This document shows, in pieces, positions 39,235 to 50,142 of a stretch of 64,000 bases of DNA. Made by a program: the position numbers and the translations under genes. Within the stretch, counting starts at the first letter, position 1. Every line of letters begins with the position of its first letter. The DNA lies in NCBI RefSeq assembly GCF_900168115.1, contig NZ_FUZC01000001.1, forward strand, positions 186,001-250,000, read 5' to 3'. Below the pieces are notes generated by a model, which saw nothing but the letters and a program-made list of their open reading frames with translations, had not been told where the DNA came from and made no database searches. The DNA comes from Salegentibacter salinarum (GTDB taxonomy: Bacteria > Bacteroidota > Bacteroidia > Flavobacteriales > Flavobacteriaceae).

Positions 39235-39254
39235 AAATCTCGATTATCGAGTAA
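39235..39254. repeat. 20-base palindromic element, first copy
   Basis: AAATCTCGATTATCGAGTAA contains the perfect palindrome CTCGAT-T-ATCGAG (39239-39251). An exact inverted copy is at 40609-40628, so trhO is bracketed by the pair. Sequence shows identity only; a protein-binding role is inferred. Confidence 0.6.
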
Positions 39255-39296: not shown

Positions 39297-40328
39297 TTAA
39301 CTTTTATATTTCAAAACCTCCGAACGTCCTTTTTTGAATATCCTATTGCTGTTGCCCTTTCCTTTTCGCAAGGCCTTTTGATCTTCGTAAGGTAAAGCGG
39401 CAATTTCCTGGCAGGCAGTAGAACAACAATTATCCATTTTTTCAGCACACCCTTCACACTGAATAAAAAGCAAATGGCAGGCTTCATTCGCACAATTCAC
39501 GTGCTTATCGCAAGGTTTTCCACATTGGTGGCAATGCGCAATCACTTCTTCTGAAATCTGTTCGGCACGACGATGATCAAAAACAAAATTCTTTCCTATA
39601 AATTTATTTTCCAGTTTTTGTTTTTCAACCTGACGGGCATATTCAATAATACCACCTTCCAGCTGATACACATTTTTAAAACCTTTATGTTTATAATATG
39701 CGCTGGCCTTTTCACAACGAATACCGCCGGTACAATACATTACAAGGTTTTTATCTTCCTTATAATCTTTAAGATTTTCTTCAATAATTGGTAAAGAATC
39801 CCTAAAAGTATCTACATCTGGAGTAATCGCACCCTGAAAATGACCAATTTCACTTTCGTAGTGGTTACGCATATCTACCAACACCGTTTTAGGATCGTTA
39901 ATAAGTTCATTGAACTTTACCGCATCAACGTGAACCCCTTTATTGGTAACATCAAAAGTACTGTCGTTAAGTCCGTCGGCAACAATTTTTTTTCGCACTT
40001 TCACCTTCAGCTTTAAAAAGGCTTTAGCATCGTGTTCTATGGCGATATTCAGCCTAACGCCTTCAAGGAAATAAATATTATCTATAAACTTTTTAAATTC
40101 ATCGAAGCGCTTTGCCGGCACCGAGAGTTGGGCATTAATCCCTTCGTGAGCAACATAAATGCGGCCAAGCACATCCATTTGGTCCCAGGCGATAAAAAGA
40201 TGATTTCTAAATAAGTGTGGATTGCCAATTTTGGCGTAGGCATAAAAAGAGAGCGTTAAACGGTCTTCTCCCGCTTCGTCTATAAGTGCTTCCCTCTCTT
40301 TAGCACTTAATTTATTGTACAGTTGCAT
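39297..40328 (-). CDS. trhO: tRNA uridine-34 hydroxylase TrhO (rhodanese-family)
   Basis: An O2-dependent enzyme that makes 5-hydroxyuridine at tRNA wobble position 34. The 343 residues have an N-terminal ferredoxin-like domain (about 1-120), a rhodanese domain (about 135-235) with the catalytic Cys in VMYCTGGIRCEK, and a C-terminal Cys-rich segment (about 260-320; HCHQCGKPCDKHVNCANEAC and QCEGCAEKMDNCCSTACQ) that probably binds zinc. The match to the YceA/TrhO family is strong. It has its own -7 box at 40364. The gene is bracketed by the 20-base palindromes. Confidence 0.93.
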   Translation of the reverse strand: MQLYNKLSAKEREALIDEAGEDRLTLSFYAYAKIGNPHLFRNHLFIAWDQMDVLGRIYVAHEGINAQLSVPAKRFDEFKKFIDNIYFLEGVRLNIAIEHDAKAFLKLKVKVRKKIVADGLNDSTFDVTNKGVHVDAVKFNELINDPKTVLVDMRNHYESEIGHFQGAITPDVDTFRDSLPIIEENLKDYKEDKNLVMYCTGGIRCEKASAYYKHKGFKNVYQLEGGIIEYARQVEKQKLENKFIGKNFVFDHRRAEQISEEVIAHCHQCGKPCDKHVNCANEACHLLFIQCEGCAEKMDNCCSTACQEIAALPYEDQKALRKGKGNSNRIFKKGRSEVLKYKS

Positions 40329-40363
40329 GCTATACTAACGTTAAGGTTAAAGAAATTTTTTTG

Positions 40364-40371
40364 CAAAGATA
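40364..40371 (-). promoter_or_regulatory. -7 promoter box of trhO
   Basis: The minus strand reads TATCTTTG, matching TAnnTTTG, 36 bases upstream of the ATG at 40328. It lies just downstream of the terminator at 40391-40429, so trhO has its own promoter. Confidence 0.55.
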
Positions 40372-40390
40372 CGGTTAAATTTCAAGGAAG

Positions 40391-40429
40391 AAAAAATGCC
40401 CTGAAAAGTGAATTCCCAGGGCATTTTTT
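40391..40429 (-). terminator. Perfect 13-bp terminator hairpin between trhO and recA
   Basis: AAAAAATGCCCTG (40391-40403) pairs perfectly with CAGGGCATTTTTT (40417-40429). On the minus strand a T6 tract (TTTTTTC) follows the stem. trhO and recA point away from each other here, so neither needs a terminator. It probably ends a short minus-strand transcript that starts near 40568. Confidence 0.75.
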
Positions 40430-40435
40430 GTGTGG

Positions 40436-40471
40436 CTAATTCGGTTTGTAATCTTTTTTACTTTGTTTCAT
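40436..40471 (-). CDS. Candidate 11-codon short ORF before the terminator
   Basis: An ATG at 40471 opens MKQSKKDYKPN and stops at 40436-40438, seven bases before the terminator hairpin. The product is very basic. A frame this short can arise by chance. It is listed because it lies between the structured 22-codon ORF and the terminator. No homologue is known to me. Confidence 0.25.
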   Translation of the reverse strand: MKQSKKDYKPN

Positions 40472-40490
40472 AAAATTAGATTTTTAAATT

Positions 40491-40559
40491 CTAGCCACCA
40501 TCAACCCGGCAACTTACATTCAGCAAAATAACTGCTGAAGTACTAAAACCACCGGGCAT
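40491..40559 (-). CDS. Candidate 22-codon short ORF overlapping a stem-loop
   Basis: From the ATG at 40559 the frame reads MPGGFSTSAV at its start and NVSCRVDGG at its end, with a TAG stop at 40491-40493. The codons fold into the nested hairpin at 40505-40556, so coding and structure coincide, as in leader peptides. A weak -7-like box (GATTTTTG at 40575-40582, 7 of 8 positions) lies 16 bases upstream of the ATG. I do not recognise the peptide. Conservation in related genomes would decide whether it is translated. Confidence 0.35.
   Translation of the reverse strand: MPGGFSTSAVILLNVSCRVDGG
40505..40556 (-). ncRNA. Candidate structured RNA element between trhO and recA
   Basis: The outer stem CCCGG (40505-40509) with CCGGG (40552-40556) encloses a perfect 7-bp inner stem TTCAGCA/TGCTGAA (40519-40525, 40533-40539) with loop AAATAAC. 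The minus strand is the likely sense strand because the T tract of the terminator at 40391-40429 is on it. No riboswitch class I know fits. The gap 40329-40764 otherwise holds only the trhO and recA promoter regions, the terminator and the palindrome at 40609. Confidence 0.4.
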
Positions 40560-40608
40560 AATCAGACTTTTTTTCAAAAATCTCATAGGCAGGGTTAATT
40601 TTAAATTC

Positions 40609-40628
40609 TTACTCGATAATCGAGATTT
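40609..40628. repeat. 20-base palindromic element, second copy
   Basis: TTACTCGATAATCGAGATTT is the exact reverse complement of the element at 39235-39254, with the 13-base palindrome at 40612-40624. It lies about 40 bases upstream of the predicted start of the short minus-strand transcript and about 140 bases before recA. Confidence 0.6.
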
Positions 40629-40764
40629 AGAACATTTAATCCTAAACTCAAATATGCTTTAAACCTCAGGTTAGAAAGTAAATATACAAAAGCTACACAT
40701 ATAAAATTGTGATGCAGGAAAACTTATAGTAATTTAGCAACTCTCTAAATAGATTATTCAAATT

Positions 40765-41781
40765 ATGAGCAACGACAAAGAAAAAGAAGCAAAATTAAAG
40801 GCCTTAAAGCTTACCCTGGATAAAATGGATAAAACCTACGGAAAGGGTACCGTAATGAAGATGAGTGACCAGGCCGTAGCCGATGTAGATGCAATATCTA
40901 CGGGTTCTTTAGGCTTAGACCTGGCTATGGGTGTAGGCGGATATCCAAGAGGACGGGTTATAGAGATTTATGGACCGGAATCTTCAGGAAAAACAACTTT
41001 AACTTTACATGCGATAGCTGAAGCGCAACAAAAAGGAGGAATTGCCGCATTTATAGATGCTGAACACGCTTTTGACCGTACTTATGCTCAAAACTTAGGC
41101 GTAGATATAGAAAACCTTATAATTTCACAACCCGATAACGGGGAGCAGGCTTTGGAGATTACCGATAATTTAATTCGCTCTGGTGCTATAGATATTATCG
41201 TGATAGATTCGGTGGCAGCGCTTACTCCTAAAAGTGAGATTGAAGGAGAAATGGGAGATTCTAAAATGGGGTTACACGCCCGTTTAATGTCTCAGGCTCT
41301 TAGAAAGCTTACTTCTTCTATTAGCAAAACCAATTGTACTGTAATCTTTATTAACCAGCTTAGGGAAAAGATTGGAGTAATGTTTGGAAATCCAGAAACT
41401 ACTACCGGTGGTAACGCCCTTAAATTTTATGCCTCGGTTCGTTTAGACATTAGACGTTCTACGCAAATAAAAGACAGCAACAGCAATGTTATGGGTAATA
41501 AAACCCGGGTGAAAGTTGTGAAAAACAAAGTAGCTCCACCATTTAAAATGGCTGAATTTGACATTATGTATGGCGAAGGAATCTCTAAAATTGGTGAGAT
41601 TATAGATATTGGGGTAGATTATGAGATCGTAAAAAAAAGCGGTTCATGGTTTAGTTACGAAGACACAAAATTAGGTCAGGGTCGTGATGCGGTAAAAATC
41701 TTACTCAAAGACAATCCTGATTTAATGGAAGAGCTTGAAGAAAAAATTAAAAATGCTATAAAAGTCGCTAAAGAAGCTTAG
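40765..41781 (+). CDS. recA: Recombinase RecA
   Basis: The ATP-dependent strand-exchange protein of homologous recombination and SOS induction. The Walker A motif is GPESSGKTT at residues 70-78. Walker B ([15 protein letters not shown]) and DNA-binding loop L2 ([20 protein letters not shown]) are intact. The length is 338, normal for the family. The region just upstream (AACTTATAGTAATTTAGC) holds a near-match -7 box. A strong terminator follows 60 bases after the stop. No LexA-type box was recognised. Confidence 0.98.
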
Positions 41782-41870: not shown

Positions 41871-41882
41871 TTGATTCCGGAC

Positions 41883-41910
41883 GCAACCTTTTCATTCATG
41901 CTGCATCTAT
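41883..41910 (+). promoter_or_regulatory. Possible ECF-type promoter of the sigma operon
   Basis: GCAACC (41883-41888) and CATCTAT (41904-41910) are spaced 15 bases apart, upstream of the ATG at 41943. They do not form the usual TAnnTTTG box and look like the -35/-10 of an ECF sigma factor, so the operon may be transcribed by its own sigma. This is an inference from motif type and place only. Confidence 0.4.
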
Positions 41911-41942: not shown

Positions 41943-42422
41943 ATGAAAAGAATTGCCTTATTAATGATTTTAGCCGTAAGTATCTATAGTTGTGATACGG
42001 ATGATGACGGCCCGAATGTAAATTATGATTTTGCAGAAATTACCGAAGCAGATTTACCCGAATTTTTTGAAATTGGCGAAAGCTATGATTTTGAAGTAAC
42101 TTACGAGCTATCCAATGCGTGTAACCAATTCGTTACGTTTGATTTTGATCAATATGAAGATGAAGAAAATGACTCTACCTTCGTTATTGAAGTTGCCGCG
42201 CTAACATCTTATGATGCAAACCTAACCGAATGTACTGAAGAAGGAGAGTTAAGCGAAACTAGAACCATTCGGGATTTAAACATTAGTAGTGAAGATTATA
42301 ATAACTACCAGTTTAAATTCCTTACAGGAGTTGACGAAAACGAAGATGGGGAATTTTTAATTATTGATGTTCCGGTAGGAGAACCTGAGCCAGAAACCCC
42401 AGAAGAGAATACTAACGAATAA
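41943..42422 (+). CDS. Acidic lipoprotein upstream of an ECF sigma factor
   Basis: A 159-residue lipoprotein with lipobox Cys17 (LAVSIYSC) and DTDDDG right after it. The rest is strongly acidic (NDFDQYEDEENDST, ending EPEPETPEEN) and probably beta-rich with two Cys (NACNQF, LTECTEE) that could form a disulfide. I do not recognise a family. It is the first gene of the putative operon with the ECF sigma and anti-sigma-barrel genes, with a 12-base gap to the sigma start, and may be the surface sensor of the system. That role is inference. Confidence 0.75.
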   Translation: MKRIALLMILAVSIYSCDTDDDGPNVNYDFAEITEADLPEFFEIGESYDFEVTYELSNACNQFVTFDFDQYEDEENDSTFVIEVAALTSYDANLTECTEEGELSETRTIRDLNISSEDYNNYQFKFLTGVDENEDGEFLIIDVPVGEPEPETPEENTNE

Positions 42423-42434
42423 CAATCTAAGTGA

Positions 42435-42977
42435 GTGAGTTTAGAAAAACTCATACTTCAGTGTAAAAAACAGGATATTAGGGCACAGGAAAAGCTTTAC
42501 CGTATGTACTCCGGTAAACTTTTTGGCCTGTGCCTTAAATATTCTAATAACTACCAGCAGGCCGAAGACAACCTGCAGGATGGTTTCATGACCATATTCA
42601 ATAAAATAGATCAATATGAAGATAAAGGATCTTTTGAAGGTTGGATGAAACGAATTGTGATCAATACCACCCTACAAAAGCACCGAAAAGAAAAATATTT
42701 TGAAATCATTAATGAAAACCAACTGGAAGATCCGGTTGTGGAAATTGATGACGATGAAATTACTACCGATTTTCTATTAGAAAGCATTCAGGAATTACCT
42801 GAACGTTACCGACAAATTTTTAACCTCTATGCGTTAGACGGTTTTTCTCACAAAGAAATTGCTGATATGCTAAACATAAGTGTTGGAAGTTCAAAATCTA
42901 ATCTGGCCCGCGCCAGGAATATTTTGAAAGAAAAAATAGAAAACCACCTCAACGATAATAAGGTGCAATCACTATGA
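42435..42977 (+). CDS. ECF-subfamily RNA polymerase sigma factor
   Basis: A 180-residue sigma-70 family protein with regions 2 and 4 only. Region 2 spans about 20-90 (QAEDNLQDGFMTIFNKIDQY, GSFEGWMKRIVINT) and region 4 about 120-172 (LPERYRQIFNLYALDGFSHKEIADMLNISVGSSKSNLARAR). The start is a GTG at 42435, preceded by a 12-base gap. It overlaps the downstream anti-sigma gene by four bases (ATGA), a typical sigma/anti-sigma pairing. The target promoters are unknown; its own promoter is a candidate. Confidence 0.92.
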   Translation: MSLEKLILQCKKQDIRAQEKLYRMYSGKLFGLCLKYSNNYQQAEDNLQDGFMTIFNKIDQYEDKGSFEGWMKRIVINTTLQKHRKEKYFEIINENQLEDPVVEIDDDEITTDFLLESIQELPERYRQIFNLYALDGFSHKEIADMLNISVGSSKSNLARARNILKEKIENHLNDNKVQSL

Positions 42978-44440
42978 AAGAAAGAAAGAACATAGACCGG
43001 CTCTACCAGGAAAAGTTCAGGGATTTTGCCCCCGAACCGCGACCTGAGTTATGGGATAATATTGCCGGCAAACTGCAGGAGAAAGATAAGAAAAAGCCTT
43101 TTATAATTCCGTTATGGTTTAAAGTTGGCGGTGTGGCAGCGGTTTTTGCTTTAATGCTTGGCGGTTATTTTTTTAGTCAAAATAATTTTACCAATACCGA
43201 ATTAGTTTTTGAAGTAGAAGAAACTGCAAAACCCCAAATAAATTTACCCGAAATCAATAAAAACGAACAGTTTGTAAATGCTTCAGAAATCCTGAGAAAT
43301 ATAAATGAAGCAACTTATTCAACTTCTGAAGGTGCCAACACCTCATCAGCAAATAACAATTCGGCTATAGCTTCAGAAAACTCGAATAGAGAATACACAA
43401 AAACTTCTGATAATTCAGCTGAAAAACAAAATTCAGAAAGTACTGAAGCAAAATTAAATGAGCAAAATTCAGCTATGACAGGAGAAGATCATCAAGATTC
43501 CGAAGAAGATAAAAATCAAAACCAGGATTTCATCAATCCAAATTCAAAAAACGAACAGCTGCCTGAAGCAATCGCCGAAAACAGTAAAGAAAATAATGAA
43601 AAAGAAGAAGGGATTTCCCTTAAAGACAGTCTGGAAGTAGCAGAACAATTAGCCCAAATTGAAAAAGAAAAAAATCTTGATAAGGAAGAAGAACTTATTG
43701 CTGAGGCTTCCAAAAAGAAACTTAGGTTAAGCACTTTTGCGGCTCCTGTTTTTTATGACAATATAGGCAGCGGAAATGCTATAGACCGGCAATTTTCCAG
43801 TAATAAAACTAGCTCACAGGTAAGTATAGCCTACGGGATGAATTTAGCCTATGCAATTTCAGAAAAAATAAAGATACGAAGTGGAATTTCTAAAGTTGCG
43901 ATGAGCTATAATGTAGAAGATATCGTGTTTTCTGCCTCCTTAAATCCAAGTACCATTAGTTCTATAAATTATGAATCTGGTGGTAATAATGTGCAACTAG
44001 ATAATGCTGCACCAAGCGGTCTACCGGGCCATAGTGATAGTGGCAATAACACTAATTTTTCTTCTGTCAATAATATGGCATTACCGGGTGAGATCAATCA
44101 GCAGTTTGGTTTTATTGAAATTCCATTAGAAATAGAATACAGCTTGCTGGATAGCAAAATTGGCCTTAACCTAATTGCGGGGGGAAGCAGCTTGTTTTTA
44201 GACGAAAACAGCATACAGGTAAATACCAATAACCAAAATACCAGGATTGGTGAGGCTAATAACATTAATAAAGTAAGTTTTAGCACCAACGTGGGCGTGG
44301 GATTAGATTACAAATTAACCGATAGTTTTAAGTTGAATTTAGAGCCCATCTTTAAATATCAGCTTGATACTTTTGACGATGCTCCCGGCGTGCGTCCTTT
44401 TTATTTTGGCATCTATTCCGGAATAAGTTTTAGTTTTTAA
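42974..44440 (+). CDS. Anti-sigma-like membrane protein with C-terminal beta-barrel domain
   Basis: A 488-residue protein of unusual build. A short N-terminal region (about 1-45; KFRDFAPEPRPELWDNIAGKL) resembles the anti-sigma segment of ECF partners, followed by one membrane helix (about 46-67; WFKVGGVAAVFALMLGGYFF). A long low-complexity N/S/E-rich linker runs to about residue 250, and the C-terminal part (LRLSTFAAPVFYDNIGSG... ending PFYFGIYSGISFSF) looks like an outer-membrane beta-barrel of the PorT type with a terminal aromatic residue. It overlaps the sigma gene by four bases. One chain would have to span both membranes through a flexible linker. The anti-sigma role is inferred from context. 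Confidence 0.75.
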   Translation: MKERKNIDRLYQEKFRDFAPEPRPELWDNIAGKLQEKDKKKPFIIPLWFKVGGVAAVFALMLGGYFFSQNNFTNTELVFEVEETAKPQINLPEINKNEQFVNASEILRNINEATYSTSEGANTSSANNNSAIASENSNREYTKTSDNSAEKQNSESTEAKLNEQNSAMTGEDHQDSEEDKNQNQDFINPNSKNEQLPEAIAENSKENNEKEEGISLKDSLEVAEQLAQIEKEKNLDKEEELIAEASKKKLRLSTFAAPVFYDNIGSGNAIDRQFSSNKTSSQVSIAYGMNLAYAISEKIKIRSGISKVAMSYNVEDIVFSASLNPSTISSINYESGGNNVQLDNAAPSGLPGHSDSGNNTNFSSVNNMALPGEINQQFGFIEIPLEIEYSLLDSKIGLNLIAGGSSLFLDENSIQVNTNNQNTRIGEANNINKVSFSTNVGVGLDYKLTDSFKLNLEPIFKYQLDTFDDAPGVRPFYFGIYSGISFSF

Positions 44441-50079: not shown

Positions 50080-50142
50080 AATTTTTAAGAATCAGCTTCT
50101 CCTATTAAGATGCAGGAATTACCAAAAGGTTGCGTAAGAAAA

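Follow-up and report, generated by a model that had tools for sequence, protein, structure and literature searches.

We describe a small, unannotated unit that lies divergently upstream of recA in Flavobacteriaceae and that encodes a short peptide, a stem formed over the stop codon, and a terminator. The explanation that we favor, with modest confidence, sees in this unit a short conserved mRNA that probably has two functions and is part of an envelope-stress sigma regulon of the Das/Dma type, linked to recA in this family. The copy from which the analysis started lies in the window (i.e., the whole 64,000-nucleotide stretch of Salegentibacter salinarum DNA that was analyzed), where its parts and neighbors are as follows.

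39297 to 40328, minus strand: trhO/YceA-like gene (UPF0176_N, Rhodanese, Rhodanese_C), a frequent downstream neighbor (78 of 88 loci)
40391 to 40429, both strands: intrinsic terminator hairpin, perfect 13 bp, with an A tract and a T tract
40432 to 40439, minus strand: 3′ arm of stem P1, TTAGCCAC (AACGARTTAGYC as the consensus of the family); it overlaps the end of sORF2
40436 to 40471, minus strand: sORF2, 11 codons, MKQSKKDYKPN, open in 8 of 8 Salegentibacter copies in the alignment
40491 to 40498, minus strand: 5′ arm of P1, GTGGCTAG, which contains the sORF1 stop codon and the Gly codon before it
40491 to 40586, minus strand: sORF1, 31 codons, MRFLKKSLIMPGGFSTSAVILLNVSCRVDGG, stop codon TAG, marked by a family profile and frame-specific purifying selection
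40587 to 40601, minus strand: leader AAATTAACCCTGCCT, directly 5′ of the sORF1 start and mostly conserved in the Salegentibacter alignment
40765 to 41781, plus strand: recA, the divergent neighbor in 88 of 88 loci

The trhO-recA gap in the window

The initial annotation described a 436-base gap between divergent trhO and recA (40329 to 40764) with a perfect 13-bp hairpin at 40391 to 40429 and an 11-codon open reading frame (ORF), and all of these were confirmed, the ORF being MKQSKKDYKPN at 40471 to 40436 (MKECKKDYKPN in the L010 copy). The T tract of the terminator does lie on the minus strand, as stated there, but the plus strand has one too; the terminator, having both an A tract and a T tract, is therefore potentially bidirectional. 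The 22-codon ORF that was reported is a real reading frame with a wrong boundary, as it is the 3′ part of the 31-codon sORF1 starting at 40586, and the near −7 box proposed in front of it, GATTTTTG, falls inside sORF1 codons 2 to 4 and is thus coding sequence. The nested stem-loop placed inside the ORF exists locally but is not the conserved structure: a loose pattern matched its outer part in 6 and its inner part in 5 of the 85 unique coding sequences of the family, and this hairpin was ruled out as a conserved element.

The predicted fold in the window was more stable than every one of 200 shuffles in each of two tests (z = −6.1 and −5.9). A simple terminator scan did not list the 40391 to 40429 hairpin, which we attribute to pairing between its T run and its A run, and a sigma-70 promoter scan of the unit, with models that do not cover Bacteroidetes promoters, gave 0 sites. 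The phage collection that was searched contained no match to the element.

Conservation within Salegentibacter

The intergenic DNA of 7 of the 14 other genomes of the genus is 87 to 95% identical to that of the window, about the same as the identity of the recA stretch compared in those seven genomes (86 to 97%). Across the eight Salegentibacter copies, seven of the first nine sORF1 residues are invariant. In the other seven genomes the element is missing or decayed: a degraded terminator and remnants are left in G007, recA-upstream sequence without the element was found in G001, G003, G005, G006, and G010, and G008, counted in this group, is 61% complete and gave no recA hit. On this comparison the element is useful yet dispensable in Salegentibacter, dispensable because half of the other genomes of the genus lack it or hold it in decayed form.

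A near-palindrome, CTCGATTATCGAG, occurs at 40612 to 40624 and again at 39239 to 39251. It was considered as a part of the element and rejected, as it stands in exact form before sORF1 in the window only among the eight Salegentibacter copies (one base is changed in L007). Its core, ATCTCGATTATCGAGWA, has 18 copies in the genome, where the reversed control has 0; a simple ORF test placed all 18 between genes, and some copies lie directly before genes that we take to be recR and hisI. The CTCGATTATCGAG/ATCTCGATTATCGAGWA sequence resembles a binding site for a regulator or else a small repeat dispersed in the genome.

A peptide family in Flavobacteriaceae

A related ORF is found in the recA-trhO gap of other genera (e.g., MKFFKRTILNNALGVSIAVNINSNCKADGG). 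The weak other-genus BLAST hits of the first DNA search (L019, L021, L022, L023, L028, L029, L030, and L033) were judged by eye to be due to chance, with ORF lists covering L021, L023, L028, and L029. The family was delineated with two peptide profiles, A2 (13 sequences) and A3 (83 sequences), both of which are blind to location. At E values of ≤1e-3, A3 matched 77 of 397 genomes of the family, once per genome and in 52 of 237 genera; this number includes two probable chance matches (G183, within a 310-codon frame, and G405, which has a stop) and two genomes, G055 and G112, counted without a check of location. An earlier profile search had matched 130 of the 397 genomes at E values of ≤0.1; full-length hits up to an E value of 0.0012 were fetched, together with G226 and G183, and weaker hits, mostly partial, were left out. 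The ORF search on 89 loci yielded 88 peptides, as L154 (from G183) had no ORF and was dropped. Eleven of the 88 loci had seeded A2, and 77 are independent of the seeds. Same-species duplicates from two collections are present among them, so that the 88 loci correspond to 86 unique upstream regions, 85 unique elements, and 83 distinct peptides.

In all 88 loci the peptide gene lies divergently upstream of recA. Downstream on the same strand, trhO was found in 78 loci, and several of the other 10 stretches may end too early; the neighbor seen in every one of the 88 loci is recA and not trhO. The peptides have 28 to 31 residues, with a basic N terminus followed by a hydrophobic stretch, and all 83 distinct peptides end in GG, 82 of them in [KR]xDGG. 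A Cys residue stands six residues before the end in 76 of the 83, with Phe, Ser, or Thr in its place in the remaining 7. None of the 4 peptides (of 83) that were compared with Pfam and NCBIfam had a match at an E value of ≤1. Beyond the family, a class-level search of 395 genomes gave 17 matches at E values of ≤0.01, of which 12 lie outside Flavobacteriaceae and only those in G000, G177, and G226 are convincing, and an order-level search of 196 genomes gave 5 matches at E values of ≤1e-3, with a weak, partial match in G088 as the single one from another family. Thus, neither set yielded a convincing family member outside Flavobacteriaceae.

The basic N terminus, the hydrophobic stretch, and the Cys six residues from the end might suggest a micro-lipoprotein, in which a signal peptide would be followed by a mature C-[KR]xDGG tail, and it would suit such a product that the genes sharing its promoter motif (see below) are mostly lipoprotein-like. 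Yet Asn is the commonest residue at position −3 relative to the Cys position (70 of 83 peptides) and stands at −1 in 36 of 83, which runs against the usual lipobox, and the Cys itself is replaced in 7 of 83. A conventional lipoprotein was rejected on these residue counts over the 83 peptides, which do not give a lipobox with an invariant Cys, and we consider the micro-lipoprotein reading very unlikely.

Evidence for coding

Purifying selection acts on one frame of the ORF. Pooled over six Salegentibacter sequences, pN/pS was 0.387 in frame and 0.883 and 0.536 in the shifted frames; over 613 close pairs of the family, it was 0.40 in frame versus 0.985 and 0.834, and over 31 disjoint pairs, it was 0.377 versus 1.054 and 0.873. 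For the family as a whole, in-frame values of 0.38 to 0.40 thus stand against 0.83 to 1.05 in the shifted frames. Moreover, both terminal Gly positions use all four Gly codons, and the C terminus is therefore selected as protein. We conclude from these codon patterns that sORF1 is a protein-coding small gene. With the co-varying stem described below, frame-specific selection and conservation lend good support to the suggestion of the initial annotation that the region gives rise to a short mRNA or regulatory RNA; a lack of conserved sequence or structure in relatives had been named there as one half of the evidence to the contrary, the other half being missing minus-strand reads, and both sequence and structure are kept in relatives.

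A stem over the stop codon

The end of sORF1 can pair with a downstream segment, located just before the terminator, to form the stem P1 (in the window, 40498 to 40491 with 40439 to 40432). The 5′ arm is typically GGYTARCTCGT and the 3′ arm AACGARTTAGYC in the family, and the Salegentibacter stem is a short one of 8 bp with weak pairing (about −6.5 kcal/mol). The two arms fit each other within loci: the duplexes of own-locus arms had a mean of −12.2 kcal/mol over 79 distinct arm pairs, versus a mean of −9.8 (standard deviation, 0.18; best, −10.3) in 200 re-pairings of arms from different loci. Matching changes on both arms are present in atypical loci such as L071, L078, and L087, with L145 and L150 as exceptions. 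In a plain alignment, 6 of the 13 P1 pairs have two-sided changes, a number reached by 6 of 500 shuffles, and 81.5% of the cells in P1 columns pair, a share reached by 0 of 500 shuffles and to be compared with 21 to 51% in controls in which the stem was slid. Counting against covariation, the slid controls at −2 and −3 had 26 double-changed cells versus 24 for the real stem, and the number of P1 pair types was reached by 56 of 500 shuffles. RNAalifold predicted no pairs on the full MAFFT alignment of the family elements, a failure that we explain by the gap-rich loop and by arms that are shifted in some clades, and the support for P1 therefore comes from the targeted tests. Despite the RNAalifold result and the slid-control counts, these tests indicate compensatory change in P1.

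In 84 of the 85 unique elements, the 3′ arm pairs with the stop region with a probability of 0.5 or more, and in 82 P1 is followed by a hairpin of 5 bp or longer. Among the 85 stop codons are 50 TAA, 33 TAG, and 2 TGA, and the next base is C in 65 elements. The majority base reaches 0.85 to 1.0 at 10 of 12 positions of the 3′ arm versus 0.46 to 0.79 in the portion of the 5′ arm that follows the stop codon, figures to be read with the fact that the pattern used to find the 3′ arm fixes TTAG.

These features bear on a simpler explanation, that of a plain small-protein gene, in which a membrane-associated stress peptide would be the sole product and P1 and the terminator would stabilize the 3′ end. 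The frame-specific selection and the near-invariant C terminus of the peptide are what such a gene would display, as is the single match per genome in the A3 search, and we regard it as a possibility, if a lesser one. However, P1 engulfs the stop codon and the last Gly codon, whereas a stabilizer would not require the stop codon, and of the two arms of P1, the 3′ one is the more conserved (with the 3′ arm found through the TTAG-fixing pattern).

When a ribosome was modeled on the stop codon, the 3′ arm was unpaired over half of its length or more in 77 of 85 elements, the downstream hairpin still formed in 82, and no antiterminator was found in any of the 85. The latter two results speak against a leader-peptide attenuator of trhO, to which the succession of a short ORF, a stem, and a terminator, and the location of trhO behind the unit, in the same orientation, in 78 of 88 loci, might otherwise point. 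The likeness to a leader peptide noted in the initial annotation is therefore unsupported in the sense of trhO attenuation. Ten of the 88 loci have no trhO hit within reach, although several of these stretches may be too short to include it, and G001 and G003, which lack the element, still have the TATCTTTG (TAnnTTTG-type) box before trhO. Attenuation of trhO was rejected for want of an antiterminator in the 85 elements, and we consider it extremely improbable.

Promoter motif and ECF sigma operon

The sequence CGCAACC occurs within 400 nt upstream of the ORF in 80 of the 86 unique loci. The full motif, CGCAACC-N12/13-NNNATCT, is present in 77 (with the 13-nt spacing in 76), and only the first box is present in L082, L124, and L151. 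CGCAACC is missing from six loci, which are precisely those of Salegentibacter, including that of the window, and none of these six has the ECF motif; the Salegentibacter unit has lost it and is presumably expressed from another promoter. The same motif is found on the other strand beyond recA in 81 of the 85 loci with enough sequence. In the window, this second position belongs to the following operon.

41881 to 41909, plus strand: ECF-type promoter motif of the sigma operon, ACGCAACC-N13-TGCATCTA
41943 to 42422, plus strand: first gene of the sigma operon, a putative lipoprotein (N terminus read by eye; no Pfam match)
42435 to 42977, plus strand: ECF sigma factor (Sigma70_r2, Sigma70_r4_2)
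42974 to 44440, plus strand: candidate Dma-like anti-sigma factor with a hydrophobic helix at residues 47 to 69 (helices modeled at low confidence)

In 20 of 20 genomes looked at, which were hand-picked and include eight Salegentibacter genomes, the motif beyond recA precedes an ECF sigma gene; a lipoprotein hit was obtained in 19 of them, and a long anti-sigma-like ORF of 424 to 611 amino acids follows the sigma gene. The sigma gene of the window matches Sigma70_r2/r4 and general ECF models, with no ECF21 model among the matches listed. From the common motif and its position, we infer that this sigma factor drives the sORF1 promoter outside Salegentibacter.

The genome of the window has 12 sites with the motif, versus 0 for the reversed control, and 11 of these precede lipoprotein-like genes, the first gene of the sigma operon included, where "lipoprotein" is for all 11 our reading of the N termini. 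One of the 12 sites is a second motif within the window (50108 to 50134, minus strand), directly before a putative lipoprotein gene, MRKILLLLSFIVFIGC. A stricter form of the motif was found in 18 of 40 genomes searched (the source genome counted), all of them Flavobacteriaceae, with 0 control hits.

In Bacteroides thetaiotaomicron, Das/Dma systems consist of an ECF21 sigma factor and a dual membrane-spanning anti-sigma factor (PMC13088901). The AlphaFold2 model of our anti-sigma candidate, built with 21 sequences, has a mean pLDDT of 53, with mostly 70 to 85 in the strands of the barrel, 38 to 54 in the N-terminal and transmembrane helices, and <50 in the tether. Its C-terminal barrel matches OmpA/OmpW-type chains (E values of about 1e-4 to 1e-3; TM-scores of 0.4 to 0.5 by target). 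As modeled, the protein would have the Dma layout of N-terminal helices, a transmembrane helix, a disordered tether, and a C-terminal beta-barrel, and the long ORF beyond recA is thus a putative Dma-like anti-sigma factor.

recA loci without the peptide

Among 30 hand-picked genomes, most of them without a peptide hit, the recA start could be parsed in 28 and not in 2, and by our count an ECF motif points away from recA in 14 of the 28 parsed loci. One of these 14, L184, has a diverged peptide with the C terminus VEGG. In some of the 14, the motif seems to drive a terminated RNA built around an AUG-AAA core (e.g., L192, L198, and L201). In addition, a comparable core containing a mini-ORF (mostly MKK...) precedes sORF1 in 31 loci of the peptide class, and a script run with no shuffle control found a stem flanking it. 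As RNA features are kept both in peptide-less loci and in these 31 upstream cores, it is plausible that the unit has a function at the RNA level in addition to its peptide.

This raises the question of whether the product is instead a trans-acting small RNA in which the ORF is incidental or a relic. At the same place as the unit, the peptide-less L185, L186, L192, L198, L201, L204, L206, and L208 keep the ECF motif and the AUG-AAA core, together with what by eye is a terminator-like hairpin and T run, and the 31 upstream cores with their stem (no shuffle control) fit this alternative as well. The strong frame-specific constraint on the peptide weighs against it, and some peptide-less genomes resemble decay remnants (L051, L055, and L057); we hold it to be quite unlikely.

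The RNAs of L198 and L201, which are recA divergent, ECF driven, and peptide-less, have a common stem, TGGTCATTTC.../...GGAGTGGCCA, whose loop holds AUG-AAA-AAG; judged by eye, compensated variants of this stem seem to be present in L204 and L208. It is possible that such peptide-less RNAs form a separate small RNA family. In L183, what follows the recA-divergent ECF motif is a lipoprotein-like gene and not the peptide RNA, and so the slot beside recA may be reused by the same regulon.

Proposed mechanism

If the unit is a dual-function mRNA of the sigma regulon, as we favor, a Dma-like envelope sensor would release the sigma factor, the RNA would be made together with the lipoprotein set, and the peptide would be translated from this sigma-induced RNA. 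A ribosome terminating at Gly-Gly-stop would cover the 5′ arm of P1 and free the near-invariant 3′ arm, AACGARTTAGYC, such that translation termination would decide whether P1 is closed or open. With P1 closed, the RNA may be protected or inert; with P1 open, the 3′ arm may act on another RNA or protein. The basic-hydrophobic peptide would act at the membrane and may feed back on the stress that induced it. Both the action of the 3′ arm and the gating by the ribosome are inferred steps of this scheme.

A bolder form of the scheme, which we put forward as an unlikely speculation, is a translation-gated regulatory RNA: the nascent [KR]xDGG would slow its own termination, the ribosome would expose an active 3′ arm, and envelope stress would be tied to recA expression, a tie suggested because the ECF promoter lies near the start of recA. 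If this were true, an envelope-stress sigma factor would control an RNA that is switched by its own peptide.

Comparison with known systems

Rfam had no match in the window above the gathering score and, among 12 loci, a single match, a SAM riboswitch elsewhere in L146 (1663 to 1763, minus strand), near the recA locus of that genome. MicL and RybB are envelope-sigma-dependent small RNAs of enterobacteria, and SgrS/SgrT is a dual-function small RNA. The present unit resembles the former as a short terminated RNA under an envelope-stress sigma factor and the latter as an RNA with a small peptide; it differs from both in phylum and in the conserved hairpin over its stop codon. TnaC is a termination-arrest leader peptide, and the conservation of the peptide C terminus directly at the stop codon is similar here, whereas no structural gene precedes the terminator and no antiterminator was found.

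The open-licence literature, as far as searched, yielded no description of the RNA or the peptide, with the Rfp1-89 RNAs compared by description only. These small RNAs are from a transcriptome study of Flavobacterium psychrophilum, which reports 85 new RNAs and an ECF motif, SM6, whose promoters include those of YceA and the small RNA Rfp11 (PMC9723704). Independent short flavobacterial transcripts and ECF-driven promoters are thus common to both cases, but the −10 box of SM6 is given there as CGT, versus the ATCT box of the present motif (PMC9723704). With Das/Dma, the recA-side operon shares an ECF sigma factor and a putative anti-sigma factor of the described Dma layout, whereas the portion of the Das/Dma description at hand mentions no recA, small RNAs, or CGCAACC/ATCT motif (PMC13088901).

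Overall, the unit adds an unannotated small-protein/RNA family to Flavobacteriaceae, in about one-fifth of the sampled genomes of the family (77 of 397), and its recA-divergent position and the promoter that it has in common with the Dma-like operon indicate where and when to look for its product. For Dma/Das-type regulation in marine flavobacteria, the findings also suggest a regulon that consists mostly of lipoprotein-like genes. A co-varying hairpin that holds a stop codon is unusual and makes it possible to test cleanly whether an RNA can be switched by the termination of translation. Compared with known sigma-dependent small RNAs and small proteins, it is this stop-codon stem and the linkage to recA that make the unit distinctive.
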